Shown: in pieces, positions 4,334-45,366 of the stretch
Position numbering within the stretch: position 1 is the first letter of the stretch
How the letters are laid out: each line of letters begins with the position of its first letter
IMG/VR virus record: IMGVR_UViG_3300032240_001151
Location: 1-64,000 of that record
Source: a virus
DNA length: 64,000 nt
Direction: 5' to 3' (one strand)
Made by a program: the position numbers and the translations under genes
The notes under the pieces: model-generated
What the model was told of the DNA's origin: nothing
Database searches by the model: none
What the model saw: only the letters and a program-made list of their open reading frames with translations

Positions 4334-4491
4334 TAGAATGTGTTTTTCTTTTTTCTTTTGATTATAAACTCAATTACTATAGGACCAACAAACAATATGA
4401 AATTGGTATTGCTGTCGTTCAATCCTATACCTAAGACGAAACCCTTTACCAAATTAACTTCGAAGTACTTGTTTTTGATTAACTCTTTCAT
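4333..4491 (-). CDS. 52-aa hypothetical protein
   Basis: ATG 4491-4489 to TAA 4335-4333. The protein has a hydrophobic stretch (NFILFVGPIVIEFII) followed by a Lys/Arg-rich tail, which suggests membrane association. It is chained by TAATG to the next small membrane protein gene and preceded by the gene at 4498-4824. Confidence 0.55.
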   Translation of the reverse strand: MKELIKNKYFEVNLVKGFVLGIGLNDSNTNFILFVGPIVIEFIIKRKKKNTF

Positions 4492-4497
4492 GATGGT

Positions 4498-4824
4498 TTA
4501 TTTGATTTGTGAATAAATTGTGGGATGATTCTCTTTCAGATAGGTATACTTAACTTCCCTAAAGAAATCATATATCCATTCAGACCTAGAGTAGGTAGCA
4601 ATGTCTATGTCTTCATCCTTAATAGGAATGCTAAACCATATCTGACTCTTCTGGGAGTTCTTAAACATGAAGCACATATTTTCCCTACCCGTATACTGAA
4701 ACCACATAGGAGATTCAGATAAGCTACTACCCATAAGCTTATATACAGTAGCGTGGTAGTCTATCAACTCTTTGAACTCCTCAACATAGGAGGAGAGTAA
4801 TTCCTTTACTGTTTCTTCTGTCAT
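4498..4824 (-). CDS. hypothetical protein, 108 aa
   Basis: An acidic alpha/beta protein with aromatic-rich central strands (MWFQYTGRENMCFMF, then QIWFSIPI) and no recognised family. It is embedded in the leftward operon between the lipoprotein at 4836 and the small membrane proteins. Confidence 0.55.
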   Translation of the reverse strand: MTEETVKELLSSYVEEFKELIDYHATVYKLMGSSLSESPMWFQYTGRENMCFMFKNSQKSQIWFSIPIKDEDIDIATYSRSEWIYDFFREVKYTYLKENHPTIYSQIK

Positions 4825-4835
4825 AACCTTATAAT

Positions 4836-5024
4836 TTATTTTACTTTATGTATTGGGTTATTACAATCACCACAATGGGTGTATACGCTTCCTAAATAGA
4901 CATGAGATTTTATGTACTCACATCCTCTAACCTTTTTAATCTCTGTTCCATCAATAATAACATTGTCATTTTGACAAGATGTAAATGCAATTGCAATGAC
5001 TAATACGCACAGTAACTTTTTCAT
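4836..5024 (-). CDS. lipoprotein, 62 aa
   Basis: The signal peptide MKKLLCVLVIAIAFTSC ends in lipobox FTSC (Cys17). The mature part is about 46 aa with three further cysteines (RGCEY, THCGDC), so a disulfide- or metal-stabilised knot is possible. Its ATG overlaps the stop of the 3D-domain gene (ATGA), which couples two envelope-directed proteins. Confidence 0.65.
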   Translation of the reverse strand: MKKLLCVLVIAIAFTSCQNDNVIIDGTEIKKVRGCEYIKSHVYLGSVYTHCGDCNNPIHKVK

Positions 5025-5428
5025 AACCTTATAATTTTAACGTTAGATAATTTAGTACCATCATCTTTAGGGTTAACTAGCACATCAACCCTATTCCTAA
5101 ACCGTTTGTTCATAACATCCTCAACCCTATATATACCACTATACTTCCCAGCACCTACAATCCTAACCTTGTCCTTGAACTTAAACTTACGTCTAAGATC
5201 TCTACTAATAGCAATAACCTTATGACGCTTAGGGTTAACACTATCTAATTTAAACCCACTAGCCGTAACATAAGGACTACTATCTGTCTGTTCTACACAG
5301 GTAGAATAGGTGGTGAGGGTAACTGATGCTTCCACAAGAGGAGGTGGAAGGTCAAAAGGTTTATCATTTACATTTATACTACCCGATGATATCGGGGTAA
5401 GTATAAGCAAAGGTAGTAGCTTATTCAT
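5021..5428 (-). CDS. secreted 3D / RlpA-like double-psi barrel protein
   Basis: After a short secretion signal (about residues 1-16) and a Pro-rich linker comes a 3D-domain barrel: SVTLTTYST at ~35-43, TASG at 55-58, a hydrophobic strand VIAIS, the KVRIVGAGKYSGIYRVED block at ~87-104 and RVDVLV at ~113-118. The conserved acids of the fold are Asp104 and Asp115. Relatives (RlpA, MltA, YabE-type 3D domains) act on peptidoglycan glycan strands. Here a role in wall remodelling or late lysis is inferred. It overlaps both neighbours by a few bases and so is coupled to the lipoprotein downstream. Confidence 0.75.
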   Translation of the reverse strand: MNKLLPLLILTPISSGSINVNDKPFDLPPPLVEASVTLTTYSTCVEQTDSSPYVTASGFKLDSVNPKRHKVIAISRDLRRKFKFKDKVRIVGAGKYSGIYRVEDVMNKRFRNRVDVLVNPKDDGTKLSNVKIIRL

Positions 5429-5606
5429 CGTCTTTTACTATTACCTCTAGATTGTTATCATCAAACCTAAGCCCGACTACTTGCTGACCTTTCTCTTCAA
5501 CAAGTTCTAAAAACTGTCTTATCTCAAAGCATCTAGTAAAGATACCGCCTTTGGCTAGACCTCCATTGAAGTCCTCAGCCCAAAAGATTTTTTCATTGAA
5601 TGCCAT
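5421..5606 (-). CDS. hypothetical protein, 61 aa
   Basis: A small acidic protein with hydrophobic strands (QQVVGLRFDDNNLEVIVKDDE). Its last eight bases overlap the start of the 3D-domain gene. No family is recognised. Confidence 0.5.
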   Translation of the reverse strand: MAFNEKIFWAEDFNGGLAKGGIFTRCFEIRQFLELVEEKGQQVVGLRFDDNNLEVIVKDDE

Positions 5607-5616
5607 AACTAATAAT

Positions 5617-5757
5617 TTAAAAGTAAATTGGACAGTGTGACTTATTCCTACTACCTAACTGCTTAGGGGTATAGTACTTGCAATTACCCACACGGGTAAC
5701 AGTATAGCAACTGCTAAACATAGCAGCTACTGTGATAAGAAGAGTGATTCTTTTCAT
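5617..5757 (-). CDS. 46-aa lipoprotein
   Basis: ATG 5757-5755 to TAA 5619-5617. The signal peptide MKRITLLITVAAMFSSC carries lipobox FSSC (Cys17), followed by about 30 residues with two more cysteines. The leader AAAGGTT before the ATG resembles that of the neighbouring genes. It is the fourth small lipoprotein on this strand. Confidence 0.62.
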   Translation of the reverse strand: MKRITLLITVAAMFSSCYTVTRVGNCKYYTPKQLGSRNKSHCPIYF

Positions 5758-5766
5758 AACCTTTAT

Positions 5767-5874
5767 TTAAACTGTGAATGAAATAAAAAACGAAACATAC
5801 CTTCCTTCTATAAGACGTACCCATAAAGATAAGTACTCTAATGGGTGACCTTTTCTAACCATTACTTTAATCAT
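5767..5874 (-). CDS. 35-aa hypothetical peptide
   Basis: ATG 5874-5872 to TAA 5769-5767 encodes a basic, hydrophobic 35-residue peptide. It lies ten bases upstream of a lipoprotein gene and is the first frame after the non-coding region. Support is positional only. Confidence 0.35.
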   Translation of the reverse strand: MIKVMVRKGHPLEYLSLWVRLIEGRYVSFFISFTV

Positions 5875-5968
5875 AAGGCTATTATTTTGGATGATTGTAT
5901 TATATTTTATATATTAAGAAATCATTAATTACACTAATTACCACAATGTCCCACAAATTACCACTGAA

Positions 5969-6001
5969 ACACAAAACCCCCATAACATAGCTGTAAGGGG
6001 G
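5969..6001 (-). terminator. possible terminator of the non-coding RNA region
   Basis: On the minus strand CCCCC (6001-5997) pairs with GGGGG (5981-5977) around a 15-base loop and is followed by TTTTGTGTTT. The U-run is interrupted, so strength is moderate. It is well placed to end a leftward transcript from the 7.2 kb region. Confidence 0.5.
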
Positions 6002-6079
6002 AATAAGTGTAGGAAGGTAGGATATAGGCGTGAGGAGGGGAGGGAAGGCACATCTGCGTTTTCCGTTCACCTCTCAGAA

Positions 6080-6095
6080 TGTTTCACGTGGAACA
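6080..6095. promoter_or_regulatory. parS: perfect parS-like centromere site
   Basis: The minus strand reads TGTTCCACGTGAAACA, identical at every position to the canonical chromosomal ParB-binding site TGTTNCACGTGAAACA. ParB spreads from such sites and, with ParA, segregates chromosomes and plasmids. No parA or parB gene is visible in this window. The site could be served by a phage ParB encoded elsewhere or could capture the host ParB. Confidence 0.85.
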
Positions 6096-7172
6096 ATTAT
6101 ATATTGCTGACCGTCGGGCGTCGATCCTACACACGAAGTGCATCCCTCTTTTGAAGGGACGACCCAATGCAGTAACGTTCGGGTAGATGATTTCGGTGTA
6201 CCTACTACGTGGAAAGGGTAACGGTCAATAGTCAGACACTATGTTACCTACACGATAGAAAAAGTCACGCTAACCATCGGAGTTCCAAACTTGCATCGGG
6301 ATACCAATATCGGTCAGATTTTAAAGATTGAAAGAATGTCAACTGCCGTTTGATTAACATCACGACAAGTACAATCGGGAATAGACATTTATCCCGATAG
6401 TAATATTTTCTTTCAATTGTGCTCCTATTATACTTTTGCTACAGGTCGGCGGGAGACACGGGACTTTCACCCATCGCTTAACACGTTCCAAGTTTGCATG
6501 CAGGGACGAGGAAGTTTTTTCGCTTTAACTTCTTTCCTCTTAAAAGCGTGAGAAAATTACAGAGGTTTATGCCTTTTGTCCGGGGGCAACCCAATACCCA
6601 AGATTACTCTCGGATACCTCCTGACACTCTCATGCCAAGACGGTGCTGAAGTTTAACGGACTTGTGCTTCGGGATTGGTCGGAGTTCAAGGGACACCCTA
6701 CGACCTCGCTAATGATTACCATTACAGCGACCATACCATCTACTCACAAGAGCCTTCACCTCATCCCTTACGAACTCGCCCGCACCTTCCTTAGGGGTTC
6801 ACGGGTCCGCTACTCTACATGACCTCAGCCATATAGTTAGCCGTAAGGAACTGGATTTATCTCTCTTGCTTTGGGTTGACTCGGATTTGTGGTCCGACTG
6901 ATACAGTCATCTATCTACTCAACCTTACGGCTGTGATTACGGATAGACAATCAACACCTCGCACAAGACATATGTCAGACGTATATTTTTGTGTGCGCCC
7001 CTCCCACGTGAGGGTCACGGCTTACTCCGGACCGCGCCTTACTCGGTCATAGTGTTCACCAATGTAGAGACATAGTGAAGGTTTGCATGCCTGCTCTTCG
7101 GTTTGTTGCCTTAGAGGTCATTGGCATCGTTGCAGGGACTAAGCGACTTAGTTAGGTCGGGTATGCAATATT

Positions 7173-7216
7173 GGGCTCCCTTATGCGGAATCGAACCGCT
7201 TCGCCAGTTTAAGGGA
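7173..7216 (-). other. tRNA-like mini-helix (acceptor plus T-arm)
   Basis: On the minus strand a 7-bp acceptor-like stem TCCCTTA/TAAGGGA (7216-7210 with 7183-7177) encloses only nine linker bases and a T-arm GCGG-TTCGATT-CCGC with a consensus T-loop, and is followed by GCCCA. There is no D-arm or anticodon arm. Such acceptor/T-arm helices are RNase P substrates, so this may be a processing element at the 5' end of the large RNA. Confidence 0.6.
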
Positions 7217-7241
7217 AGACATTCGGGATCGGGTGAGTCAC

Positions 7242-7808
7242 TTATTTGCCTGCAGTAATTTGCAGGGCTTTCTTAGCTGCTGCGAGTGCCTTACGCTCTG
7301 CAGAGATTTTTGCTTCTGCTTCTAGTATGTGCTTAGGAACAAGGCTCTCATAAAGTTCCTTTGCATCTTGGCGAGTGTACTTGAGATTAACCTTTACGGC
7401 TTTCTCAACTGCCATGAGATTGTTAGAGGCTACATCCACAGAGATGTTCTGTCCTTTGTGACCGAACGCCTTGGCAATGCCGAGGGCTATCTCATCCTTG
7501 CTTGACTTGTTGAAGGTCAACTCATCGGTAGTGAACCGAGAGTTAAGGATGATTTCAGTGATACCGAAGTTAACACTGCGAATTTTCTCAGCGAAAGTTT
7601 TACCCTTTGGAGTAAACTCACCCCTTACCTCTTTGTTGATAACAACTTGGATGCAAGGCTGTTTGTAAGATACAGAACACTTCTCAATGAGACTGCGTAC
7701 TGCGTTACCTATTGTTTCAGTCGGACGACCGATTGACAAATCTACGTTTCTAACTTGTGGCGTTAAAGAAGCATCTTTAAGCGACACGATTTGAATAGTT
7801 GCTTTCAT
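7242..7808 (-). CDS. hypothetical protein, 188 aa
   Basis: I chose the start at ATG 7808-7806 (MKATIQIVSLKD), with an A-rich leader. An in-frame ATG 120 bases upstream exists, but the extra residues look like translated leader. The protein is alpha/beta with basic patches and an Ala/Lys/Glu-rich C-terminal helix (HILEAEAKISAERKALAAAKKAL). Codons are more GC-rich than in neighbouring genes. It ends next to the tRNA-like element and candidate ncRNA and probably shares their promoter. No family is recognised. Confidence 0.65.
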   Translation of the reverse strand: MKATIQIVSLKDASLTPQVRNVDLSIGRPTETIGNAVRSLIEKCSVSYKQPCIQVVINKEVRGEFTPKGKTFAEKIRSVNFGITEIILNSRFTTDELTFNKSSKDEIALGIAKAFGHKGQNISVDVASNNLMAVEKAVKVNLKYTRQDAKELYESLVPKHILEAEAKISAERKALAAAKKALQITAGK

Positions 7809-12722: not shown

Positions 12723-12851
12723 CTACCGCCCTTGTCCTCTATATGCTTTTGGTCTTGGGCTGTGTTTGTTATAAGATTTTTTTGCAACTCCAAGTTTTCT
12801 TTTACCAAAGGTGATCTTTATGGAAGTACCACCGCCTTTTGCTTTTGCCAT
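12723..12851 (-). CDS. 42-aa basic mini-protein
   Basis: ATG 12851-12849 to TAG 12725-12723. Strongly basic (KITFGKRKLGVAKKSYNK, then RPKAYRGQGR) with an opening MAKAKGGGTS, so nucleic-acid binding is plausible. Sequence character differs from the AT-driven chance frames around it. No family is recognised. Confidence 0.5.
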   Translation of the reverse strand: MAKAKGGGTSIKITFGKRKLGVAKKSYNKHSPRPKAYRGQGR

Positions 12852-12895
12852 GACTTATTCTTTTATATAAATATTTGTTAATTGATTGTTTTTTA

Positions 12896-12904
12896 ATATT
12901 TATA
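12896..12904 (+). promoter_or_regulatory. late-promoter-like motif
   Basis: ATATTTATA, 15 bases before ATG 12920 of the first leucine-rich-repeat gene. Confidence 0.55.
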
Positions 12905-12919
12905 TATAATTAAAGTAAT

Positions 12920-14491
12920 ATGCCATTAGATACTAAAAAATCATTACTAAGCGGAAATAAAAGCCAAGTTGGTAAAAAACAATCAAAGTCTTTTTTGCAA
13001 CCGCATTCTTTCGGTTCTACGGGTATTTCTGGTACTTTAGTATCTACCTATGCACAGATTCAAGGATTTGAAGCTCCTATTAATATCCCTTATACGGCTG
13101 GGGAGGAAATCCCTCCTTCTCCTCCTCCTGTTTTAGTTTTTAAGTTGTTATTTAATGACATAGCTAACGCTAATGCATTAGTAGGAGATGCGTCAAATGT
13201 AGCAGACTGGAATACCTTCTTTGACTTACCTAATTATGGTAATCCATTTACAAGTGTAAGTATAGTTGGAAATGAGATTAATTTAATAGGTGGTAGTAAT
13301 ATTACTATTAGAGGTAACTTATTTGCATCTAATAATAATATTATAAGTGTTGTAGATACAGGTTGTATATTATCTACTATAGATCAACCTTTTATATATT
13401 GTACTTCATTAGTGTCTGTAAATTTACCACTAGTTACAACTGTATGTTCAAATTGTTTTTATGGTTGTACTTCATTAACTACAATTAGTTTACCATCTTG
13501 TACAAATTTAGGTACAACCATTGGTTATGATTCTGTATTCTATAATATAATAGGTAACACAATAACATTAACTATACCTTCTGCTCTTATGACTTGTAAT
13601 GGAGGAAATCCAGATGTTGATATAATTGATTTAGGTATAGATAATAATTTAATAATAAATGGGGATACTTATATACCATTTGCTGGATATACTGGAAATT
13701 TAACATTGGAATGGGATAATATTTCTAATGCAGATTTACTAGTTGGTGATAGTTCAAATGTTGGAGATTGGAATACATTCTTTAATTTATCACATTGGTC
13801 AACTGAATTTATATCAGTTGAAGTTTTTGGTAATAGCGTAACATTAATTGGTGGTGAAAATATAATCATTAGAAGTAACTTATTTCAAGATAATAATAAT
13901 ATTATAAGTGTTGTAGATACAGGTTGTATATCCTATATTAGAAATGAATCTTTTCGAAATTGTACTTCATTAGTGTCAGTAGATATACCATCAGTTACCA
14001 CTGTAGGTTTTAATTGTTTTGTATCTTGTACTTCATTAGTGTCTGTAAATTTACCACTAGTTACCACTGTAGGTGAGTCTTGTTTCTCAGATTGTAACTC
14101 ACTAACTACAATAGATTTACATTCACTTATAATAGCTAGTAATTTTTGTTTTAATCACTGTTTATTGACAACAATTAATTTACCTATACTTAAAACTGCT
14201 GGGCTTGATAGTTTTGCGTATTGTACTTCATTGGTATCAGTAGATTTACCACTAGTTACAACTGTAGGTGATTTTTGTTTTAATAGTTGTACTTCATTAA
14301 CTACAATTAGTTTACCATCTTGTATTAACTTGGGTACAACAGTTGATTATAATTTCGTATTTCGTAATATTTCAGGAAAATCAATAACACTAACAGTACC
14401 TTCAGCTCTTATGACATGTGACAGTGGTAATCCAGATGGAGATATAGTTTATTTGCAGAATCACAATACAGTAACAGTAATAACAGTTTAA
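12920..14491 (+). CDS. BspA-type leucine-rich-repeat adhesin-like virion protein (copy 1)
   Basis: This 523-aa protein starts with a ~40-residue module shared with the next two genes (KKSLLSGNKSQVGKKQSKSF, then STGISGTL), probably the attachment point to the virion. Residues ~70-240 and ~250-510 are two related blocks of LRR_5/BspA repeats, with repeating units like CTSLVSVNLPLVTTVG and a conserved Cys ladder. BspA-type repeats bind host surface or extracellular proteins in Bacteroidota. The C-terminus ends TVTVITV, as in copy 2. A receptor-binding or tail-fibre-tip role is inferred. Confidence 0.75.
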   Translation: MPLDTKKSLLSGNKSQVGKKQSKSFLQPHSFGSTGISGTLVSTYAQIQGFEAPINIPYTAGEEIPPSPPPVLVFKLLFNDIANANALVGDASNVADWNTFFDLPNYGNPFTSVSIVGNEINLIGGSNITIRGNLFASNNNIISVVDTGCILSTIDQPFIYCTSLVSVNLPLVTTVCSNCFYGCTSLTTISLPSCTNLGTTIGYDSVFYNIIGNTITLTIPSALMTCNGGNPDVDIIDLGIDNNLIINGDTYIPFAGYTGNLTLEWDNISNADLLVGDSSNVGDWNTFFNLSHWSTEFISVEVFGNSVTLIGGENIIIRSNLFQDNNNIISVVDTGCISYIRNESFRNCTSLVSVDIPSVTTVGFNCFVSCTSLVSVNLPLVTTVGESCFSDCNSLTTIDLHSLIIASNFCFNHCLLTTINLPILKTAGLDSFAYCTSLVSVDLPLVTTVGDFCFNSCTSLTTISLPSCINLGTTVDYNFVFRNISGKSITLTVPSALMTCDSGNPDGDIVYLQNHNTVTVITV

Positions 14492-14525
14492 AAAATAATA
14501 AATGTTAGAATCAAAAAAATCATTA
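14463..14525 (+). repeat. 63-bp direct repeat, copy A
   Basis: These bases are identical to 15694-15756. The repeat spans the last codons of one leucine-rich-repeat gene, the spacer and the first codons of the next. Recombination between copies would delete or duplicate a whole gene. Confidence 0.9.
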
Positions 14526-15722
14526 TTAACAGGAAATAAAAGTCAAGTTGGTAAAAAACAATCAAAGTCTTTTTTGCAACCCAAATCTTTTAGTTCTACT
14601 GGCATTTCTGGTACACTAACCTCGACATATCTTCAACCTACTAACTATGAACCAACTGTTAGTAAGCCATATGAAACTCCCCAGAATGCATTTAAATTAT
14701 TATTTAATGATATTAACAATGCTAACTTATTAGTGGGTGACGCATCTAATGTATCAGATTGGAATTATTTCCTTAATCTTCCAGCACTTGGTAATCCTTT
14801 TACATCTGTAGAAGTTTTAGGCAATGAAGTAAAATTATATGGTGGATCTAATATTAAAGTGAAACCAGCACTAATGTATAATGAAGGTTATCAATATTTA
14901 GTAAGTATAGTTGATGAAATTGGGTGTATTACATCTGTTGGTGGAGATGCATTTAGCTATTGTGAGCTGTTAACCTCAGTGAGTTTGCCAGAATGTACAA
15001 TTATATATGGTTATGAAGATTCTCCATACGATGATTATGGTGGATTTGGAGGTTGTCAAGCATTAGCTAATATAAACATTCCAAAACTAGTTACACTTGG
15101 TAGTTATGCATTAAGTGATAATATATCAATATCAACGTCTCTTAACTTTCCTCTATTAACAACTATTGCAGATGGTGGGCTTAGCTATTTGTCAAATGCA
15201 ACATCAATAAACCTACCAAGTCTTGAAACGATTGGTGCTTCTGGTTTATCAGGTAATAATGCAGTGACGTCTTTTGTTTTACCAAATGTATCACTTATTG
15301 GTGATTATGCTTTTGCAGGTTGTTCATCTTTAACAACAATAAGTCTACCAAAACTTACAACTGCTGGTAATCGCTGTTTCTATTATTGTACAAGTTTAGC
15401 ATCAATCTCTTTACCTATACTTGAAACAGCAGGTGATTATTGTTTCACGGATTGCTCTTCACTAACAACAATTAATTTACCAGTATTAGTTAGTGCTGGC
15501 ATAGCTTGTTTCGTTGATTGCTCTTCACTAACAACAATTAATTTACCACAATGCATAAATTTAGGACCAGATTGTTTTGATAGTATGGTATTTGCTAATA
15601 TTATTGGAAATACTATTACACTCACTGTCCCATCTGCACTTATGACTTGTAACAGCGGTAATCCAGATGGTGATATTCAAGAATTACAAGCTAACAATAC
15701 AGTAACAGTAATAACAGTTTAA
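14502..15722 (+). CDS. BspA-type leucine-rich-repeat adhesin-like virion protein (copy 2)
   Basis: This 406-aa protein has the same N-terminal module as its neighbours (residues 1-45), a linker, then about ten LRR_5 units (SLTTINLPVLVSAGIACFVD type). The central repeats diverge from copy 1 while both ends are nearly identical, as expected for modular exchange of binding specificity. It starts 10 bases after the stop of copy 1. Surface recognition is inferred from the repeat family. Confidence 0.75.
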   Translation: MLESKKSLLTGNKSQVGKKQSKSFLQPKSFSSTGISGTLTSTYLQPTNYEPTVSKPYETPQNAFKLLFNDINNANLLVGDASNVSDWNYFLNLPALGNPFTSVEVLGNEVKLYGGSNIKVKPALMYNEGYQYLVSIVDEIGCITSVGGDAFSYCELLTSVSLPECTIIYGYEDSPYDDYGGFGGCQALANINIPKLVTLGSYALSDNISISTSLNFPLLTTIADGGLSYLSNATSINLPSLETIGASGLSGNNAVTSFVLPNVSLIGDYAFAGCSSLTTISLPKLTTAGNRCFYYCTSLASISLPILETAGDYCFTDCSSLTTINLPVLVSAGIACFVDCSSLTTINLPQCINLGPDCFDSMVFANIIGNTITLTVPSALMTCNSGNPDGDIQELQANNTVTVITV

Positions 15723-15756
15723 AAAATAATAAATGTTAGAATCAAAAAAATCATTA
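15694..15756 (+). repeat. 63-bp direct repeat, copy B
   Basis: Perfect match to 14463-14525; the repeats bracket exactly one gene unit of 1231 bp. Confidence 0.9.
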
Positions 15757-16176
15757 CTAAGCGGAAATAAAAGTCAAGTTGGTAAAAAACAAACAAAATC
15801 TTTTTTACAACCATCTTCTTTTGATTCTACCGGTATTTCTGGTACACTAACCCCATCATATCTTCAACCTATTAACTACGAACCAATTGTTAATAGGCCA
15901 TACGTAGCTATTGATCCAAATTGTATATATTTTACAATAGAGGCTGTAGAAAATGACCCTTTCTGGTTTTTCATAGTTGTTAATGATGATGGTGGTCCAA
16001 ATTTAACAGGTGTTGTAACTTGGGGAGATGATAGCACAGCTGACACATTTACAATTGCTCCAGATTCTGGTGTATTTTTAAATCATACATTTTTACGTGC
16101 AGGATCTTACAGTGGATCACTTCGTGTAGACGATCCATCTAGAATCTATCTAATTCAAGCAACTATTAACGATTAA
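15733..16176 (+). CDS. virion adhesin-like protein, short copy with PKD-like domain (copy 3)
   Basis: The 147 aa share the N-terminal module of copies 1 and 2 (residues 1-45). The rest is a single PKD-like beta-sandwich: TGVVTWGDDSTADTF, then LNHTFLRAGSYSGSLRV, the usual W-G-D...H-x-F...G-x-Y signature. Where its paralogs have leucine-rich repeats, this one stops; a leucine-rich-repeat gene follows separately 11 bases downstream. It may be a split or a two-subunit version of the same adhesin. Confidence 0.68.
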   Translation: MLESKKSLLSGNKSQVGKKQTKSFLQPSSFDSTGISGTLTPSYLQPINYEPIVNRPYVAIDPNCIYFTIEAVENDPFWFFIVVNDDGGPNLTGVVTWGDDSTADTFTIAPDSGVFLNHTFLRAGSYSGSLRVDDPSRIYLIQATIND

Positions 16177-16187
16177 AATAATTTACA

Positions 16188-16622
16188 ATGGGAGCAAGGC
16201 TTACAAAAATATCAAACTTCAAAGAATTTACAGGATTGCGTGTTGTATTATTAGGTTGGAATTCTCTTTCTAGTTTTCCAAATGATGAAATAAGCAGTGA
16301 ACTTATTGAGTTAGGATTACAAAGTAACCAACTCAATTCATTAAACATTTCCAATTTTACGATCTTATCTACTTTATATGTAGGTACTAATCATTTGGAA
16401 GAATTGGATATATCTAATAATCCTAATATAGATACTATAAGTGCAAACACTAATAGATTGTCACAATCAGCTGTGAATAATATACTGATTAACTTGGACA
16501 ATAATGGTTTATCAAATGGTAACTGTCAACTTTCTTCAGGAACAAATGCAGCACCTTCAGGTGATGGAATTACAGCTAAAACCAATCTACAAAGTAAAAG
16601 TTGGAGTGTTTATACAAACTAA
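16188..16622 (+). CDS. leucine-rich-repeat protein
   Basis: This 144-aa protein is made of classical LRR units (LRVVLLGWNSLSSFP, LIELGLQSNQLNSLN, LEELDISNNPNI) with a C-terminal cap of the INLDNNGLSNGNCQLS...TNAAPSG...SKSWSVYTN type common in Bacteroidota proteins. It has no virion-anchor module of its own, so it may pair with the PKD-like protein just upstream. A protein-binding role is inferred. Confidence 0.7.
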   Translation: MGARLTKISNFKEFTGLRVVLLGWNSLSSFPNDEISSELIELGLQSNQLNSLNISNFTILSTLYVGTNHLEELDISNNPNIDTISANTNRLSQSAVNNILINLDNNGLSNGNCQLSSGTNAAPSGDGITAKTNLQSKSWSVYTN

Positions 16623-16654
16623 GTAATAATAATAATAATTTAAAATTTAAAAAA

Positions 16655-16990
16655 ATGCCAGCAAAAGAATTTACACTAGAAGAACTTATAGCTAATCAGA
16701 AACAACTAAAAGCTGATAAGATATCTAAAAATTTAGAAAACATTGCAAAAATGTCAGAAAGAGCTGCTGCTGCTGCTGAAGGTGCAGAGAAAGATAGACT
16801 TGAAGGTCTTGTAAAGTTACATCAAGATTATAAAGTAGAATTAGAGGCACTAGATCCTATAGCTATAGCAACAGAAAGATTTAATAAGTTAAAAGATATT
16901 AAACCAATTGTAGAAGCTCCTGCTCCTGAAGTTATAGAGCCAAAAACAACGCCAGCTGTAAAATTAAATTCAAGTTCTAGTTCTAAATAA
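16655..16990 (+). CDS. helical protein, 111 aa
   Basis: Start chosen at ATG 16655 (MPAKEFTLEELIANQKQ), after an A-rich leader; an in-frame upstream start would overlap the previous gene. Residues 5-85 form charged, Ala-rich helices likely to coil; the tail is Pro/Val-rich and ends in Ser repeats. It is perhaps a chaperone or structural spacer for the adhesin genes before it; no family is recognised. Confidence 0.55.
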   Translation: MPAKEFTLEELIANQKQLKADKISKNLENIAKMSERAAAAAEGAEKDRLEGLVKLHQDYKVELEALDPIAIATERFNKLKDIKPIVEAPAPEVIEPKTTPAVKLNSSSSSK

Positions 16991-17053
16991 TTGATACTAT
17001 ACTTTTAAAAAATTTACTATACGTTTAGAGTCTAAAGAATTTCGGTTATAAAA

Positions 17054-17073
17054 ACTTAATTTTTAAGTAATTT
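17054..17073. terminator. weak AT-rich hairpin between convergent genes
   Basis: ACTTAA (17054-17059) pairs with TTAAGT (17063-17068) with A- and T-runs on either side. It lies in the 88-base gap between a rightward and a leftward gene and could end both transcripts. Confidence 0.4.
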
Positions 17074-17078
17074 TTACT

Positions 17079-17348
17079 TTATTCTATATAAAACTCTAAC
17101 TCTTTTAGTACTTTTTCAAGTATATTTATATCAATTTTGAGGTCGGGATTCATTATTTCTAATGAGTTTCTGACCTCATTTGCATATGCTTCCACCAAAG
17201 ATTCAGTAATTTCTTCATCATCTTCATCAATAATATCAGCCCAAATACAATCTAGAAGCTCAAAACTGAATAAAGAAAGTTCTAAATTGTTTGATTCCTC
17301 TATTAATTTGTTAAGGTTTTCTTGAAATTCTTTTAAATTTTTACTCAT
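17079..17348 (-). CDS. acidic helical protein, 89 aa
   Basis: Very acidic (DIIDEDDEEITESLVEAY) and all helical, with no recognised family. It follows the nuclease-like gene by 14 bases on the minus strand. Acidic small proteins next to nucleases can be DNA mimics or inhibitors, but this is speculation. Confidence 0.5.
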   Translation of the reverse strand: MSKNLKEFQENLNKLIEESNNLELSLFSFELLDCIWADIIDEDDEEITESLVEAYANEVRNSLEIMNPDLKIDINILEKVLKELEFYIE

Positions 17349-36074: not shown

Positions 36075-38942
36075 ATGTCGGCATACAAACGTTTATATAA
36101 GTCAGATATATCTAACATTCCATATTTAGCAAATAAAAATTGGAGTGTCAGCGCATGTGATTTGGAGTCTTATGGAATTAGAGTATACAATGGAGTAAAA
36201 ACCAGTAGTATATTTGATTCTATAAACGATGTAAAAACAAATAATGAGTATGATAGATTGGTTTATCAATCGGTAAATCATCTATATTATCAAGAATTTT
36301 CAGGATCATTTTTAGACGATTCCTCAAATATAGCATCTCTAAACTATGCTAGTGCTTCAATTTATAGACCTTCCGGAGCTTATTATGACTATACTCCACA
36401 AGGGTACATGATAAAATCCTTTCCAACAGGATCAAATGCCACTATAAAGGTATTATCCATATCTAAAGACGTATTTAGTAATTCTGTAAAACATTTATCC
36501 TTTAATATATCAACATCCTTTATGAATTTACAGGATGATGGAAAAGGAAATATTTATGATACTTCAGTTATTGATACATTAGTTGGAAATATATTTTATG
36601 AACACGGACTCGTAATAATAACTAACCCAGATTACCAAAACATATTTCTTTTACCACCGTTTGCAAAAGACGATTATGCATCTTTTTCATCTTCCACAAC
36701 TCCTAAATTAATAAGTCCTTTATTAAACGACAATACTAGAGGATGGACTGCACTAACAGGGTCAATAGAACTATCAGGATCGGACGTTTCTTATTTTACT
36801 AATAATGGAAATGGAACAGTAACACTAAATACAAGTGTAATAGGGACATATACTACACATTATAGATTTTCTACTAGCAGCTCTAGTAGTAATTGTATAC
36901 TTAAGTCAAATTATGCTAAAATAGAAAGCGTAGTTACTAAACCAATGTGTAATTTTATAGTGTATGCAATATATGTAGTACCAGCAACAGCTACTCCTAC
37001 GCCAATACCAGCAACACCTACACCATTACCAGCTACAGCCACACCAACACCTTTACCAGCTACTATAAAATGGTGGAACTATGAACTACCTACTCCATTT
37101 GTAGACAGTGATATTGAGATAAATGGTACTACATATGCTGGAGGATATGATTCTGGATCATTTACTGTCGCAGCTAACACCAGTATTTTAGCAAAACAAA
37201 ACTCTTCTACATCAACAGAAGTACTAGGAGGGTATACATTTATTGTAAGAAATATAACAGATAGTACGGTACTGTACAATGCTACAACTACAGCAATAGT
37301 TTCTAGTTATACAACTATGAACAATTATACGTTTACAGCGGTTGCAGGTAAGATATATGAAGTTTCTGCATCTACTTATAACTCTACTGGAGTATCTACA
37401 CCAACACCAACACCTACATCTACTTTAGCACCAGCTACAGCTACACCTACACCTACTAGAACACCAACACCTACACCTACTAGAACATCTACACCTACAC
37501 CTACCTCAGCACCAGCCACAGCTACACCAACACCTACACCTACCTCAGCACCAGCCACAGCTACACCTACTCCTACATCTACTTTAGCACCAACAGCAAC
37601 AGCAACTCCTGTACCAGCAACTGCTTGTTTCAGTGATTGGGTTGTTCAAGCAGGTAGTTATAGCAATGATTTAAGGATAACATCTACTGATATACAACTA
37701 CACCCAGTAGGAATGACCGGAACTAGCAACAGTCAAGACAGTACTGCAGATGGTTATATAACAGTAACTCCAGGATCTGAAAATATAAAAATATATTACG
37801 AAATATTTAACTATAATATTACAAACCAAACTGGATCAATGTCTACATTGACTCTCGTTGGACAACAAGGGCAAGGTACATATAGTATAACACCATTTAC
37901 AGTTAAGGGGTTAACACCTCCTAATAGTGGGTCATATATAACATTACCTCAAACAGGAAGTTATCATGCAACATTAGCAATTAGGTACCAATGGACAGGT
38001 ACTGGTGGTGTTGATTCAAATAGTAGAGGTAGGATATATATTGACAATGCTGGAATTTGCCCAACATCTACACCAACCCCTACACCATTACCAGCTACAG
38101 CCACTCCTACACCTACACCCATAGGAATAGCTTGCGGTGGTTCGACATTAACTGTGTCAACTAATGGGCTTGGAAGTTGCGCAACTCCTTCTATTCAGAC
38201 AATAGCAATGAATATGTCTGGCGCTTCTAATGGAGGTACAATTACTGTCCATTATGATGCTATTGATTATCCAAATAGATTTAATATATATGCTGATGGC
38301 TCATTAGTAACAACTAGTGGTTGGGTAGGTCAAAATGCAACTAACTGTACAGGACCTTGGAATACTTTTGGAACATCAGCAGGAAATTTAGTATTCACAT
38401 ACGATAACACAAAAACTTATACAGTTAAAGTTGAACTTGCAGCACGTAATAGTGTTACAAATGAAACTTATCAATTGTATATGACATGTGCATCAGCTCC
38501 AACATCAACACCAATACCAGCAACTTCAACTCCTGTACCAGCTACTGCTACTCCAACTAGAACTTCTACACCAACTCCAACTAGAACTTCAACTCCTGTA
38601 CCAGCTACTGCTACTCCAACTAGAACTTCTACACCAACTCCTATACCAGCTACTGCAACTCCTATACCAGCAACTGCTACACCTATACCAGCAACGGCTA
38701 CTCCTACACCAGTACCACAGAATAATTTTCAATATAGCGCTACGAGTTGTCTTACTGGAGGTAGTACTACATTAATAACAACAAGTGCATTATCTGTAGG
38801 AACTATATATAGATCAGCACCATCAGGGATTTCTAATTGTTACACAATAACCGCTTTTATAACAATGACCTCAACAACAGCAAATTTTGTAGGATACGGT
38901 ACTGTTTCTGACTGTTTTGACTCAAACTGTACTCAGTTGTAA
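36075..38942 (+). CDS. multidomain fibre protein with Pro/Thr-rich linkers, 955 aa
   Basis: Domains in order: N-terminal virion-type region (1-215), a cadherin/Big-like sandwich with an LLNDN motif (~215-285), a TATPTP linker (~305-335), a beta domain (~335-440), a long linker of TP, TPTPTR and PATATP units (~445-515), a beta domain (~518-660), a short linker, a Cys-containing beta domain (~685-805), a linker (~806-880) and a C-terminal Cys-rich domain (~885-955). The linkers look mucin-like and offer dozens of Thr/Ser sites for O-glycosylation. The glycosylation genes begin 63 bases downstream. A long flexible adhesin or fibre is inferred. Confidence 0.72.
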   Translation: MSAYKRLYKSDISNIPYLANKNWSVSACDLESYGIRVYNGVKTSSIFDSINDVKTNNEYDRLVYQSVNHLYYQEFSGSFLDDSSNIASLNYASASIYRPSGAYYDYTPQGYMIKSFPTGSNATIKVLSISKDVFSNSVKHLSFNISTSFMNLQDDGKGNIYDTSVIDTLVGNIFYEHGLVIITNPDYQNIFLLPPFAKDDYASFSSSTTPKLISPLLNDNTRGWTALTGSIELSGSDVSYFTNNGNGTVTLNTSVIGTYTTHYRFSTSSSSSNCILKSNYAKIESVVTKPMCNFIVYAIYVVPATATPTPIPATPTPLPATATPTPLPATIKWWNYELPTPFVDSDIEINGTTYAGGYDSGSFTVAANTSILAKQNSSTSTEVLGGYTFIVRNITDSTVLYNATTTAIVSSYTTMNNYTFTAVAGKIYEVSASTYNSTGVSTPTPTPTSTLAPATATPTPTRTPTPTPTRTSTPTPTSAPATATPTPTPTSAPATATPTPTSTLAPTATATPVPATACFSDWVVQAGSYSNDLRITSTDIQLHPVGMTGTSNSQDSTADGYITVTPGSENIKIYYEIFNYNITNQTGSMSTLTLVGQQGQGTYSITPFTVKGLTPPNSGSYITLPQTGSYHATLAIRYQWTGTGGVDSNSRGRIYIDNAGICPTSTPTPTPLPATATPTPTPIGIACGGSTLTVSTNGLGSCATPSIQTIAMNMSGASNGGTITVHYDAIDYPNRFNIYADGSLVTTSGWVGQNATNCTGPWNTFGTSAGNLVFTYDNTKTYTVKVELAARNSVTNETYQLYMTCASAPTSTPIPATSTPVPATATPTRTSTPTPTRTSTPVPATATPTRTSTPTPIPATATPIPATATPIPATATPTPVPQNNFQYSATSCLTGGSTTLITTSALSVGTIYRSAPSGISNCYTITAFITMTSTTANFVGYGTVSDCFDSNCTQL
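36989..38715 (+). repeat. Pro/Thr-coding tandem repeat tracts
   Basis: Interrupted tracts at about 36989-37068, 37396-37622, 38068-38121 and 38497-38715 are built of ACACCTACACCTAC- and ACCAGCTACAGC-like units encoding TP and PATA repeats. Unit number can change by slippage or recombination, altering linker length in frame. Confidence 0.75.
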
Positions 38943-39005: not shown

Positions 39006-40259
39006 ATGGATAAAATATTTGTACAGATAGCTAGTTACAGAGATCCACAGCTAGTTCTCACAATAGATGACATGATGAGTAGGGCTAAACACCCTGAAAG
39101 GCTAACATTTGGTATATGTTGGCAATATGATGAAGAAGAAGATACTGAAATATTTGATGATAAACCAAATTTTCGTATAAAAAAATACCACTACACCGAA
39201 AGCGAAGGTTTAGGATGGGCTAGAAACGTTACTAATAGTCTATATGATGAGGAAAAATATACTTTACAAATAGATAGCCACCATAGATTTGTAGACGGAT
39301 GGGATGATATAATTATGGAAGATTATGCCCAGACTTTAGAAAAATCGGAAAAACCGATTATTACTACCTACTGTACCCCATTTGACCCAGAAGCTTGTAG
39401 ATGTTCTTATGAAAGACTCCCATCATTAATGTCTCAGTATGAGTTTTCAGCAGATAAATTACTTATGAGTATGCCTTGGTATATTCAGGATTATCAGGAA
39501 AGAACTAAGGTAATAAGAGCTAGAACTATCAGTGGACACTTTTACTTTGTAGATGGTAAGTTTATAGATGAAGTTAGATACGATCCTGACATTTATTTTG
39601 GTGGATACACAGAAGAAACAACTATGAGTGTTAGAGCGTTCACTCATGGGTATGATTTCTATAGCCCATACAGAATGGTAATGTGGCACGAATACACTAG
39701 AAATTACAGAAGAAAACATTGGGATGACCACGGATTAGAAAGCCAAACAAAAAAAACATCTGGGGAAAGAGATATATATGCTAGGAACAAGACTAGGCAA
39801 TTGTTTGGACAAGAAGAGCATGGCATAGATATGGGAATATATGGATTAGGAACGGTGAGGACTTTACACGACTATGAGGTATATGGAGGGTTTGATTTTA
39901 AAAATTGCAGAATACAAGACTATACTCTAAAGGTTAAAGAACCACCAAATCCAATAGATTGGGAAGAGCAGTTTAAAACTTATAAGTATGATGTTACAGT
40001 TGATTGGGATGTAGAATTTTTTAAGAAATTTGAATTTGAAAACCCTAAATTTTTAACACTAGGTATACAAACAAAATCTGGATTGGAATTATATAGGAAG
40101 GATTTTAAAATTGAAACAGAACCTGAGTATGTTAATCTAATAAATAATATGTACACAACTACTATAGATTCTCAAGATAAGCCTGATAAAATAGTAATGT
40201 ACTTATTTGATGAAAATAAACAGTGGAGTGAAAGGTACGAAAAAGATATAAATGTATGA
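39006..40259 (+). CDS. GT60-type (Skp1-like) GlcNAc transferase
   Basis: This 417-aa protein resembles the GlcNAc-transferase family typified by Dictyostelium Skp1 GlcNAc transferase (GT60): IFVQIASYRDPQL at 4-16, a TFGICWQ strand, EGLGWARN, and the metal-binding DSHHRF at 90-95 followed by GWD, then STGHFYF- and GYTEE-like segments. The eukaryotic enzyme puts GlcNAc on hydroxyproline; bacterial and phage relatives are thought to modify proteins. First gene of a six-gene run; its last bases overlap the next ATG. The nearby Pro/Thr-rich fibres are plausible substrates. Confidence 0.75.
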   Translation: MDKIFVQIASYRDPQLVLTIDDMMSRAKHPERLTFGICWQYDEEEDTEIFDDKPNFRIKKYHYTESEGLGWARNVTNSLYDEEKYTLQIDSHHRFVDGWDDIIMEDYAQTLEKSEKPIITTYCTPFDPEACRCSYERLPSLMSQYEFSADKLLMSMPWYIQDYQERTKVIRARTISGHFYFVDGKFIDEVRYDPDIYFGGYTEETTMSVRAFTHGYDFYSPYRMVMWHEYTRNYRRKHWDDHGLESQTKKTSGERDIYARNKTRQLFGQEEHGIDMGIYGLGTVRTLHDYEVYGGFDFKNCRIQDYTLKVKEPPNPIDWEEQFKTYKYDVTVDWDVEFFKKFEFENPKFLTLGIQTKSGLELYRKDFKIETEPEYVNLINNMYTTTIDSQDKPDKIVMYLFDENKQWSERYEKDINV

Positions 40260-41392
40260 GAATACTATTTGTTGTAACAGGGAACGCCTCAAGAAGTAAT
40301 TATGTAACTGGTCATAAGATGAGGTATGACAAAGCAGGGTTATCCGGAACTGATACCTCAAGTATACTCGTCGCAGAGTATTTAGCAAAGCAAGGTCATG
40401 AAGTTGTCATGGCAGTAGAAGAGTCAGATGATCATCTAAAAGAAGATAGACGCAAAAGAGGATATACGTTTAATCCAGGAAAAGAGATTGTAAATGGAGT
40501 AACCTATACATACATACCTAGTTTAGAAGGTATAGAAGATACTGAGTTTGACATACTAATAAATTCATTATGGTTTGGTGAATATGATAGTTTGAATGCA
40601 AAAATAAAAAAAGGAATTTTTTATTGGTGTCATTTATCATGGGGATACTATACGGCAGAGTTAAAAGACTATGCAATTAAACATAATTTAAAAGTTGGGT
40701 ATGTTAATATATCAAAATGGGCTAGAGAACACCATTTAGAAAACATAAAATACTTAGAAGAAAATCTACCAACTGTATACGAAACAGTAATACCTAATCC
40801 AATGACACTAGATGTAATGAAAGAAGTGTTGGATAAGAAATTAGAAAGAAAGCATAAAAAAGTAATATTTCCAGCCCAGTGGTCTAGAGGTGGTGATGTA
40901 GCTTTAAAAGCTGTAAAAGAATTAGGATGGGATGAAAATTTTGTAGCATTTGACTATGTTAATTTACAAAATGGAATAGATAAAGAAACTTTATTTACTG
41001 AACTTGCTACTAGCGATTATTTTATATTTCCACAATATACTCCAAATGAACATGTGTATAAAGATGTACACTCCTGCGCAATGGGTGAGGCATTAGGTAT
41101 GGGAGTAGTGGTAGTATCATATCCTTTAGGATCTCACGAAGAGTACTATGGGAGTTATTATTATAAGCTAGATTTTCCTCCGGATATAGATATGGAAAAA
41201 ATGATGAGGGAGAGGGTTACACATGAGCCAAAGATGGATTACATAGATAATATTGTAGAAAAAGTAAAACAGATAGAAGAAGACCTAGAAACAAAAGAAA
41301 GTATGAGAGATAAAAGTATTTCTTATATTTTTGAAAACTTTGACATAAATAAAATAGGCCCAATGTGGATTAATTTTATAAATAAATTTTAA
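40256..41392 (+). CDS. GT-B fold glycosyltransferase
   Basis: This 378-aa protein has a Rossmann start (MRILFVVTGN), a central hinge, and a C-terminal donor-binding half with KKVIFPAQWSRGGDVALKAV (~200-219) and HSCAMGEALGMGVVVVSYPLGSHEEYYG (~272-299), the E-A-x-x-x-G-x-P/V-V-like block of GT4/GT1 enzymes. It lacks an obvious signal peptide and so acts in the cytoplasm. It overlaps the GT60-like gene by four bases (ATGA). The sugar donor is unknown. Confidence 0.75.
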   Translation: MRILFVVTGNASRSNYVTGHKMRYDKAGLSGTDTSSILVAEYLAKQGHEVVMAVEESDDHLKEDRRKRGYTFNPGKEIVNGVTYTYIPSLEGIEDTEFDILINSLWFGEYDSLNAKIKKGIFYWCHLSWGYYTAELKDYAIKHNLKVGYVNISKWAREHHLENIKYLEENLPTVYETVIPNPMTLDVMKEVLDKKLERKHKKVIFPAQWSRGGDVALKAVKELGWDENFVAFDYVNLQNGIDKETLFTELATSDYFIFPQYTPNEHVYKDVHSCAMGEALGMGVVVVSYPLGSHEEYYGSYYYKLDFPPDIDMEKMMRERVTHEPKMDYIDNIVEKVKQIEEDLETKESMRDKSISYIFENFDINKIGPMWINFINKF

Positions 41393-41396
41393 AAAT

Positions 41397-42083
41397 ATGA
41401 ATCCTTTTGATTTTTTTGATAAAATATTCTACATAAATTTAGAAGAAAGAACAGATAGAAAAGACCACATTGAGAAAGAACTGTCTAATTATGATATAAA
41501 AGCAGAGAGATTTCCAGCTATAACCTTATCTCCAGAACAAAATGAAAGTATTAGGCAAGACGGATGTTTTTTTAGAAATGACGAAAGACCTGAGCATGCC
41601 AGGTTTACTAAATCTTGCACTCTGTCCCATCTTAGTGTAGTATTTAGAGCAAAATTGATGGGATATAAAAATGTTTTAATTTTTGAAGATGATGCAATGT
41701 TTCATAATACTATTGTAGATGAGTTATCAAAAACAATAGAAGATTTAAAAACAATGGAAAGATGGGATATGTTTTATATAGGATGTAATCCATTAAGATA
41801 CCAAAAAGTAACCAATAACTTAGGAAGGTCATTAGGCGCATTATCAGCACATGCCTATGCAGTAAATAACCATTTTTATGATAAAATACTAAACATACCA
41901 TTTAAACACTTACCATCAACTGATTTGTACTATCATGATCTAGCGCTATCCCCACAAAATAATATATACATGGCTATTAAAAATTTGGCATGGCAAATGC
42001 CTAGCTATTCTACTTTAGAAGAAATGGCAGTAGACTATTATCCATCAATACAAGCTAGATACGATAATAACATGGTAATATAA
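41397..42083 (+). CDS. GT25 family glycosyltransferase
   Basis: This 228-aa protein has the GT25 hallmarks: YINLEERTDRK at 12-22, an ERFPAI segment at 37-42, CTLSHLSV at 74-81 and the FEDDA metal motif at 96-100. The family includes bacterial LPS galactosyltransferases and procollagen galactosyltransferases, and giant viruses use it on collagen-like proteins. Here galactose transfer onto a protein-linked glycan is a reasonable guess. Confidence 0.85.
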   Translation: MNPFDFFDKIFYINLEERTDRKDHIEKELSNYDIKAERFPAITLSPEQNESIRQDGCFFRNDERPEHARFTKSCTLSHLSVVFRAKLMGYKNVLIFEDDAMFHNTIVDELSKTIEDLKTMERWDMFYIGCNPLRYQKVTNNLGRSLGALSAHAYAVNNHFYDKILNIPFKHLPSTDLYYHDLALSPQNNIYMAIKNLAWQMPSYSTLEEMAVDYYPSIQARYDNNMVI

Positions 42084-42085
42084 TT

Positions 42086-42859
42086 ATGAAAGTTACTTTT
42101 AGTAAACTTGGTATATATGGACAATTAGGAAATCAAATGTTCCAATATGCCCTTTTATTAGGGATAAAGCATAAACTAAAAGTACCTATAGTAATAGATC
42201 CAGAAACAGTAAAAACTTCTTATTTATTTGAATTTTTTAATTTAGAAGAGTACATAGAAGAAACATTTAAACCAGATAATTTTTATAAAGAAGTTGAATT
42301 TTCATATAATAAAGAAGTTTTTGATATAAAAGAGGACACAGATTTTGAAGGATATTACCAGACAGATAAGTACTTTAAACATTGTTCCGATATAGTAAGA
42401 AAGGAGTTTACTTTTAAAGAAAATGTAGTAAAAGAGGTAAAACAGTATTTAGATAAATTAGAAGGTAAAAAATTAGTATCCCTACATGTTAGAAGAGGTA
42501 GTTATCTTGGAAATACAGAATTTCATCCATTGTGCAAAATAGATTATTATAACAAAGCTATGGATTTATTAGACGATGGAAATACTGTTTTTGTATGTAC
42601 ATCTGATGATAAAGATTGGTGTGAAAAAAATTTAAATAGGAGTAATATACTATTTAACTTTAACAGTTTGATTTATGATATGTGCTTAATATCTAATTGT
42701 CATGATCATATAATAGCAAATAGTAGTTTTAGTTGGTGGGGATCTTGGCTATCTGATAATCCGGATAAAAAGATAATAGCTCCAAAAACATGGTTTGGAC
42801 CAGCAGCAAAGCATCTTGATACAAAAGATATATATTGCAATAATTTTATAAAAATATAG
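42086..42859 (+). CDS. GT11 alpha-1,2-fucosyltransferase
   Basis: This 257-aa protein carries all GT11 motifs: GQLGNQMFQYA at 12-22, the HVRRG motif at 134-138 and NSSFSWWGSWL at 212-222. Family members transfer fucose from GDP-fucose in alpha-1,2 linkage to galactose. It follows the GT25 gene by two bases, which fits sequential galactose then fucose addition. GDP-fucose would have to come from the host or from genes outside this window. Confidence 0.9.
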   Translation: MKVTFSKLGIYGQLGNQMFQYALLLGIKHKLKVPIVIDPETVKTSYLFEFFNLEEYIEETFKPDNFYKEVEFSYNKEVFDIKEDTDFEGYYQTDKYFKHCSDIVRKEFTFKENVVKEVKQYLDKLEGKKLVSLHVRRGSYLGNTEFHPLCKIDYYNKAMDLLDDGNTVFVCTSDDKDWCEKNLNRSNILFNFNSLIYDMCLISNCHDHIIANSSFSWWGSWLSDNPDKKIIAPKTWFGPAAKHLDTKDIYCNNFIKI

Positions 42860-42860
42860 A

Positions 42861-43469
42861 ATGTTAATAACAGATTTAAAAAAGCATTTTAAAAAACCTC
42901 TTAAAGGGGCTGTACATATAGGAGCATTTCATGGAGAAGAAAAAGAGTGGTATACCGAAAATGGGATAAACCCTATTGTATGGGTAGAAGCTAATCCAAA
43001 TTATGAAAATATTTTAAAAGAAAGATATCCAGAAGATATAGTAATAATATCAGGAGTTGGAAACGAAAATAAAATTGCTACTTTTAATGTAGCAAATAAT
43101 GGACAATCTTCTTCTTTTTTGAAAATGGGAACCCATTTAGAACAACACCCAAGCGTATTTTTTGTAGACACTATTGATGTTGAAATAAAACCAATGAAGC
43201 AAATTATACAAGAAAATAATATAGATATTAGTAAGTATAATTTTTTAAATGTTGATGTACAGGGTTATGAATTAGAAGTACTAAAAGGCTTTGAAGATAT
43301 TTTGAACAGCATGGATTACGTTTACTTGGAAGTAAACACTAATTATCTGTATTTAGAGTGTGCCTTAATAGAAGATATAGATCAGTATTTACAAAAGTAT
43401 GATCTAAAGAGAGTAGAAACTCTTATTACCCCTAATGAGTGGGGTGATGCTTTATATATAAAAAAATAA
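42861..43469 (+). CDS. FkbM-family methyltransferase
   Basis: This 202-aa class I methyltransferase has AVHIGAFHGEE as its SAM-binding motif, WVEANPN with the ribose-binding acid, and the family pattern FLNVDVQGYELEVLKGFE (~130-147). FkbM enzymes O-methylate sugars or natural products. In this operon it likely caps a glycan with a methyl group. It starts one base after the fucosyltransferase stop. Confidence 0.88.
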   Translation: MLITDLKKHFKKPLKGAVHIGAFHGEEKEWYTENGINPIVWVEANPNYENILKERYPEDIVIISGVGNENKIATFNVANNGQSSSFLKMGTHLEQHPSVFFVDTIDVEIKPMKQIIQENNIDISKYNFLNVDVQGYELEVLKGFEDILNSMDYVYLEVNTNYLYLECALIEDIDQYLQKYDLKRVETLITPNEWGDALYIKK

Positions 43470-43470
43470 T

Positions 43471-44562
43471 ATGTACGATTATCTAATAGTAGGATCTGGT
43501 TTATATGGGTCTGTTTTTGCAAGAGAAATGACGGATAAGGGATATAAATGCCTTGTAATAGATAAACGTAATCATATAGGAGGAAACTGCTACACAGAAA
43601 ATATAGATGGTATAAATGTACATAAATACGGACCTCACATATTTCACACATCAGATAAAAAGATATGGGATTATGTGAATAGATTCGCTACGTTTAATAA
43701 CTTTAGCTATAGGCCAAAAGTAAACTATAAAGGGAAGGTTTATTCTTTTCCTATAAATTTGATGACTCTATATCAAGTTTATGGGGTAACAACTCCGGAT
43801 GAAGCTATTAGAAAATTAGAAGATGTAAAAGTTGATATACAAAACCCAAGTAATTTAGAAGAGTGGATTCTATCACAAGTAGGTCCTGAAATATACAATA
43901 TATTCATAAAAGGATATACTAAGAAGCAATGGAAGAAAGATCCAAAAGAACTACCTACAAGTATTATAAGGAGGCTACCCATAAGAATGTCTTTTGATGA
44001 CAATTACTACGAAGACACGTATTCAGGCATCCCAATAGGAGGATACACACAAATATTTGAAAAGTTACTAAAAGGCATAGAAGTGCGCTTAGATACTGAT
44101 TATTTTTATAATAGAGATTATTTTAACGATATTGCTAAAAAAGTAGTATATACAGGCCCCATAGATAGATTTTATTCATATATGCATGGAAAATTAGACT
44201 ATAGGAGTCTTAGATTTGAAACTATGAATATTAACATGCCTGATTATCAAGGGGTTGCAGGTATGAATTATACTGATGAGGATGTTCCTTTTACTAGAAT
44301 AGTTGAGCATAAGCATTTTGATTTTGGAAAACAAAAAAATACAATAGTAACTTTTGAATATCCAGAATCAAAAGGAGAGCCTTATTATCCCATAAATGAT
44401 GATAAAAACAACTCTATATATAGAAAGTACAAAGAAATGATGGACAAAGAGTCTGTATATATCTTTGGAGGTAGGCTGACGGACTATAAATATTATGATA
44501 TGCACCAAGTTATAGGATCTGCACTAACTAAAAGTCAGAAAGAAAATATTTATAATATATGA
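43471..44562 (+). CDS. glf: UDP-galactopyranose mutase
   Basis: This 363-aa flavoenzyme begins with the FAD-binding DYLIVGSGLYGSVFA and has DKRNHIGGNCYTE, GPHIFHT (His in the FAD-facing loop), the IPIGGYT segment and FEYPESKGEPYYP with the substrate-pocket tyrosines, a complete UGM layout. It converts UDP-galactopyranose to UDP-galactofuranose, so the phage glycan probably contains Galf. Its stop overlaps the ATG of the next gene, a Pro/Thr-rich virion-like protein, tying sugar synthesis to a candidate acceptor. Confidence 0.93.
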   Translation: MYDYLIVGSGLYGSVFAREMTDKGYKCLVIDKRNHIGGNCYTENIDGINVHKYGPHIFHTSDKKIWDYVNRFATFNNFSYRPKVNYKGKVYSFPINLMTLYQVYGVTTPDEAIRKLEDVKVDIQNPSNLEEWILSQVGPEIYNIFIKGYTKKQWKKDPKELPTSIIRRLPIRMSFDDNYYEDTYSGIPIGGYTQIFEKLLKGIEVRLDTDYFYNRDYFNDIAKKVVYTGPIDRFYSYMHGKLDYRSLRFETMNINMPDYQGVAGMNYTDEDVPFTRIVEHKHFDFGKQKNTIVTFEYPESKGEPYYPINDDKNNSIYRKYKEMMDKESVYIFGGRLTDYKYYDMHQVIGSALTKSQKENIYNI

Positions 44563-45347: not shown

Positions 45348-45366
45348 AAATAAATAGAAAGGTCTT

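Follow-up and report, generated by a model that had tools for sequence, protein, structure and literature searches.

Our analysis indicates that the tandem gene array starting at position 12920 of the window, i.e. the complete stretch of 64,000 nucleotides studied here, is probably a hypervariable, recombining locus for virion-displayed modular adhesins of a T4-like phage. The terminase groups this phage with the T4-like phages, its nearest named relative being Flavobacterium phage immuto (48.5%), and the portal protein matches Pfam Portal_T4; relatives in IMG/VR have terminase identities of 73-93%. The record to which the window belongs comprises 90,112 bp, is metagenomic and possibly incomplete, and gene order is described as assembled. 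The locus and its boundaries contain the following features:

12723-12851, minus strand: left boundary gene, conserved, 42 aa, MAKAKGGGTSIKITFGKRK...
12855-12919: divergent leader, with TATAAATA on the plus strand at 12866-12873 (array) and on the minus strand at 12897-12904 (MAKAKGGGT... gene)
12920-14491, plus strand: gene 1, 523 aa; N-module, then two cap-LRR-C-cap units (~13130-13648 and ~13670-14488)
12929-17081, plus strand: replaceable cargo segment, without DNA homology in two relatives (L031 and L036)
14463-14525, plus strand: first copy of an exact 63-bp repeat, covering the end of gene 1, the spacer and the start of gene 2
14502-15722, plus strand: gene 2, 406 aa; N-module, then one cap-LRR-C-cap unit
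15694-15756, plus strand: second copy of the 63-bp repeat, covering the end of gene 2, the spacer and the start of gene 3
15733-16176, plus strand: gene 3, 147 aa; N-module, then a PKD-like beta domain
16188-16622, plus strand: gene 4, LRR protein without the N-module; partner of gene 3
16655-16990, plus strand: small KEFTLEELI gene, which accompanies cap-LRR genes
17079-17348, minus strand: right boundary gene, conserved, convergent with the array

Genes 1 to 3 lie in tandem on the same strand at 12920-16176, with 10 bp between neighbours and one common leader. Each of them starts with a module of ~57 aa (the N-module), for which identity to gene 1 is 66-67% and genes 2 and 3 share 82%, in an alignment that is gap-free except for one residue; there are no further copies in the whole 90,112-bp record. 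A first-pass annotation of this DNA had described, between 12920 and 16622, three adjacent genes with a common N-terminal module and different binding domains. The common module (66-82% identity) and the different domain of gene 3 were borne out, but genes 1 and 2 do not differ in the kind of domain that they carry, present as two units and one unit, respectively, and the genes with the module extend only to 16176, the remainder of the span including the fourth, LRR-encoding ORF that lacks it.

The proteins of genes 1 and 2 match the LRR_5 profile (PF13306, BspA-type) with E 1.7e-29 (102.7 bits) and E 3.1e-31 (108.3 bits), both above the curated Pfam cut-off of 27.7 bits. In gene 2, the N-module is followed by an N-cap, BspA LRRs and a C-cap, and the AlphaFold model is a capped solenoid, confident from residue ~61 on (mean pLDDT 88.4), with residues 1-47 predicted to be disordered in a part of the alignment that is covered by a single sequence. 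The best PDB match of the solenoid model was 4fs7 (E 1.3e-11, TM 0.40), and among solved structures the closest folds belong to BspA-like surface proteins from Bacteroides and its relatives (4fs7, 4fd0). For gene 3, the PKD match (PF00801) lies below threshold (E 0.0021, 18.5 bits versus a curated cut-off of 23.5), and the model is all-beta and of modest confidence (pLDDT 65.5). A comparison of the array proteins with known structural phage families gave no match.

The first-pass annotation had also pointed to a perfect 63-bp repeat at 14463 and 15694 across the gene junctions, and this we can confirm. The repeat is exact, cannot be extended on either side, occurs twice in the entire 90,112-bp record and is the longest exact run common to the paralogues; it covers the 3'-terminal 29 nt of one gene, the spacer of 10 nt and 24 nt of the gene that follows. 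Given a flank identity of 0.73 on the same diagonal, an exact run of at least 63 is far beyond chance (P ~2e-7). None of the 16 same-amino-acid codons inside the repeat carries a synonymous change, compared with 18 of 34 just outside it on the C-terminal side and 8 of 39 on the N-terminal side. This matches the pattern that recent copying would leave, and recent recombination is the best explanation of the junction. Moreover, sites common to pairs of the three N-modules cluster beyond shuffles (runs test p 0.013), a modest sign of exchange or mosaicism. An exact repeat at both junctions of a metagenomic record might also suggest that copies were wrongly joined or multiplied during assembly, but the gene bodies that lie between the repeats are different along their entire length and thus no copy has been doubled, which makes such an artefact highly improbable.

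A crossover between the two copies of the repeat would delete 1231 bp, corresponding exactly to gene 2, and leave genes 1 and 3 intact, while an unequal crossover would add a copy. The suggestion that recombination at this repeat could delete or duplicate gene 2 therefore holds for the gene as a whole, but not for an in-frame fusion or chimera, because loss of the whole gene generates no fusion protein. The repeats that could alter a protein in frame are those within the genes: gene 1 contains internal exact repeats at 561, 627 and 822 bp, 39-41 bp long and all multiples of 3, and gene 2 an LRR-period repeat at 66 bp, also a multiple of 3. A search of the 90-kb record, possibly an incomplete one, gave no match to Resolvase, Phage_integrase or RVT_1 (reverse transcriptase), and such events would therefore most likely proceed by ordinary homologous recombination. 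Nor is the variable part flanked by long inverted repeats; the pairs detected were imperfect, with up to 42 nt and 71-86% complementarity. A DGR, an invertase or an integrase that could explain the array was thus looked for and not found in the record.

Comparison with related phages allowed us to define the limits of the variable segment. DNA homology to L031 ends at 12928 and restarts at 17082, and homology to L036 ends at 12930 and restarts at 17081; in both phages, the leader and the initial 9-11 nt of gene 1 are retained, and all that follows, as far as the convergent gene ends, has been exchanged. These breakpoints define the array in its entirety as exchangeable cargo downstream of a leader that stays conserved. 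At the array site, L031 has one different 210-aa gene and L036 three different genes, L034 and L035 have a 109-aa gene, and L033 a similar short gene. The leader with TATAAATA in both directions is kept in five phages, and we infer that its TATAAATA elements may serve as late promoters; a sigma-factor-like protein is encoded nearby (phrog_1740, E 7e-4). A late-promoter claim based on TATAAATA counts alone (25 versus 17 expected) was rejected as weak, the conserved leader being the stronger fact.

The N-module conservation in related phages that the first-pass annotation would have predicted gave a mixed result: searches detected the exact module in 0 of 13 relatives and gave no match in IMG/VR, INPHARED or the GTDB genomes, but the locus, the leader and the design of a module followed by a cassette do recur. 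The absence of the exact module elsewhere could stem from sampling, and near-identical records may escape searches. Gene 2 used as a query gave no match in the relatives, and gene 3 (PKD) and gene 4 (LRR) gave none in INPHARED.

The same design is found at several other loci. Tandem genes with a common N-module but different downstream parts occur in L072, L074, L083, L086/L087 and L090, and at 44559-46407 of the window, with unrelated N-modules. In L072, three tandem genes (4377-7392) have the N-module MAIPxxQIGW..., one of them with a Fib_succ_major domain and one with cap-LRR units. The order in L057 is a cap-LRR gene, a KEFTLEELI homologue, a gene with another N-terminus, a PKD-like ORF and an LRR ORF; the last two (5078-6321) are separated by 11 bp and have the frame offset that is also seen at 15733-16622 of the window, and the PKD-like ORF bears a different N-module (KAYVRYDG...). 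In L072 (9068-9853), the PKD-like and LRR parts are fused in one ORF, again behind an N-module different from that of the window. The pair formed by genes 3 and 4 may be a split gene, a two-subunit protein or the result of a frameshift. The N-module of the window weakly matches that of L057 4606-5067 (E ~1e-4 against nine sequences), and the KEFTLEELI gene is 63% identical to its counterpart in L057 (4352-4585) and 45% identical to that in L056 (6908-7837). By eye, the L056 gene runs on into an apparent papain-type peptidase.

It could be argued that the array is an ordinary tandem family of duplicated accessory genes, in which the 63-bp identity reflects recent duplication or gene conversion without any adaptive switching role. 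The tandem order, the common ends, the modest strength of the mosaic signal (p 0.013) and the lack of a recombinase or reverse transcriptase in the record would all fit such a family. However, selection for variability is suggested both by cargo turnover at fixed boundaries and by the reuse of one design with N-modules that are unrelated, and we find the tandem-family explanation rather doubtful.

The cap-LRR-C-cap unit itself was found at 39 IMG/VR loci compared with one locus in the GTDB collection (84,980 bacterial and archaeal genomes), and in the viral loci it follows many different N-termini in 1-3 copies per protein. Two contigs from different metagenomes, L062 (IMGVR_UViG_3300042526_000595) and L075 (IMGVR_UViG_3300027721_000734), contain the same long gene with flanks that are 96-98% identical, and L062 carries one 290-aa LRR unit more than L075. 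The difference is clean and in frame, with breakpoints at the end of the C-cap (NTVTIIEI, which corresponds to NTVTVITV in the 63-bp repeat of the array) and in the linker after it. We take this pair as direct natural evidence, in another phage, of in-frame gain or loss of such units. It is the sole case, as no gain or loss of units was seen in six other groups of near-identical contigs. A limited search of the literature did not turn up any account of this LRR cassette from phages. Taken together, the idea of a recombining array is supported by junction sharing, the modest mosaic signal, locus replacement in relatives and the change in unit number between L062 and L075, but not by any resolvase, integrase or reverse transcriptase.

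LRR proteins have diverse roles, and the array proteins might accordingly act outside the virion, either released on lysis or inside the cell, e.g. by binding host glycans or proteins. We consider this unlikely given the conserved late-type leader and the fusion partners of the cap-LRR unit elsewhere, which include proteins containing PT-rich linkers as well as long, structural-looking ones (judged by eye).

The window contains a second tandem pair at 44559-46407, with its own common N-module (GPFNI...LLAGY) and PT-rich linkers. In 9 of 12 relatives the pair has two matches, which makes it core, unlike the array, and since the hypervariable array and this conserved adhesin-like pair are distinct, host-range prediction should consider both. 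The N-module of the pair is also present in other cap-LRR phages (L076). Adjoining the pair, within the structural region, are glycosyltransferase-like and sugar-metabolism-like genes (39006-44562, by eye), and a 955-aa protein with many PT-rich linkers (36075-38942) is likely another adhesin-type protein; its gene contains an exact 57-bp direct repeat with 63-nt spacing from 38522.

T4 Hoc is a capsid decoration with Ig-like display domains, and it is possible that the array proteins similarly decorate the head and anchor the phage to mucus or surface glycans, but have no part in determining the host that is infected. Their PKD/Ig-like and LRR adhesive domains, which vary between relatives, would suit this function, the array sits outside the main tail block and at a distance from it, and the conserved pair at 44559-46407 could be the true receptor-binding set; however, no capsid-binding domain was recognised, and sequence alone cannot separate docking to the head from docking to the tail.

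For the preferred reading, a locus of recombining virion adhesins, modularity, locus replacement, recent junction sharing and unit gain or loss elsewhere are the steps established by sequence comparison, and we infer from the design the steps of virion docking, receptor or surface binding and an effect on host range. A virion protein would serve as the docking site of the short, probably unstructured N-module peptide, and contact with the host or its surroundings would be made by the display domain, which is either a PKD-like domain or a capped BspA LRR solenoid. Homologous recombination at the common ends would alter how many domains are displayed and of what kind, and the changed set could, over evolutionary time, change what the phage sticks to. 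This differs from the ready-made device for switching host range that had been proposed from the first reading. The genes are co-directional, 10 bp apart and behind one leader, and the loss of gene 2 alters the set but selects no single protein; a switch is unsupported because no feature of the array would make the genes mutually exclusive.

More tentatively, these loci may represent a plug-in display system, probably of Bacteroidota phages, in which docking peptides, short and disordered and belonging to several unrelated families, are repeated in tandem before freely exchanged cassettes, cargo turns over between a fixed junction of leader and start codon and a fixed downstream gene, and the virion carries a changeable mixture of adhesins. 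If the preferred reading is right, a largely uncultured group of T4-like phages, with phages of Flavobacterium as the nearest named relatives, would vary its attachment proteins without a dedicated recombinase. On the practical side, the N-modules and the capped LRR cassette are concrete movable parts that can be tested individually for virion location and binding.

Among known systems, the TSP1-4 clusters of Ackermannviridae consist of adjacent receptor-binding genes whose N-terminal docking parts are conserved and whose C-terminal binding domains vary; the conserved 5' ends of the tsp genes have been proposed as recombination sites, and tsp recombination as well as the loss of a tsp gene have been observed (PMC11414711). 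The array likewise consists of neighbouring genes with a common N-terminus and different C-termini, but whereas the Ackermannviridae proteins are tailspikes with folded Gp10-like XD domains, the array combines a short, probably disordered module with LRR or PKD-like domains, and its virion role is the proposed one. A second close system is the distal tail fibre locus of the T-even phages, reportedly described by Tetart, Desplats and Krisch in 1998 (cited in PMC11414711 and PMC6027323); the array differs in having several tandem genes, and no fibre homology was detected. By analogy, the array would work like the Ackermannviridae tailspike clusters and the T-even tail fibre locus, yet it is not assignable as a member of the former type, because the array proteins gave no Pfam or PHROG match to a Gp10-like/XD or tailspike domain. 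The array units have the same repeat family and fold as the BspA-type LRR surface proteins (LRR_5; 4fs7, 4fd0), but those are located on the cellular surface, whereas the array unit is encoded by a phage, has its own conserved N-cap and C-cap and follows a phage N-module. Finally, the array would resemble T4 Hoc in presenting Ig/PKD-like display domains on a T4-like virion.
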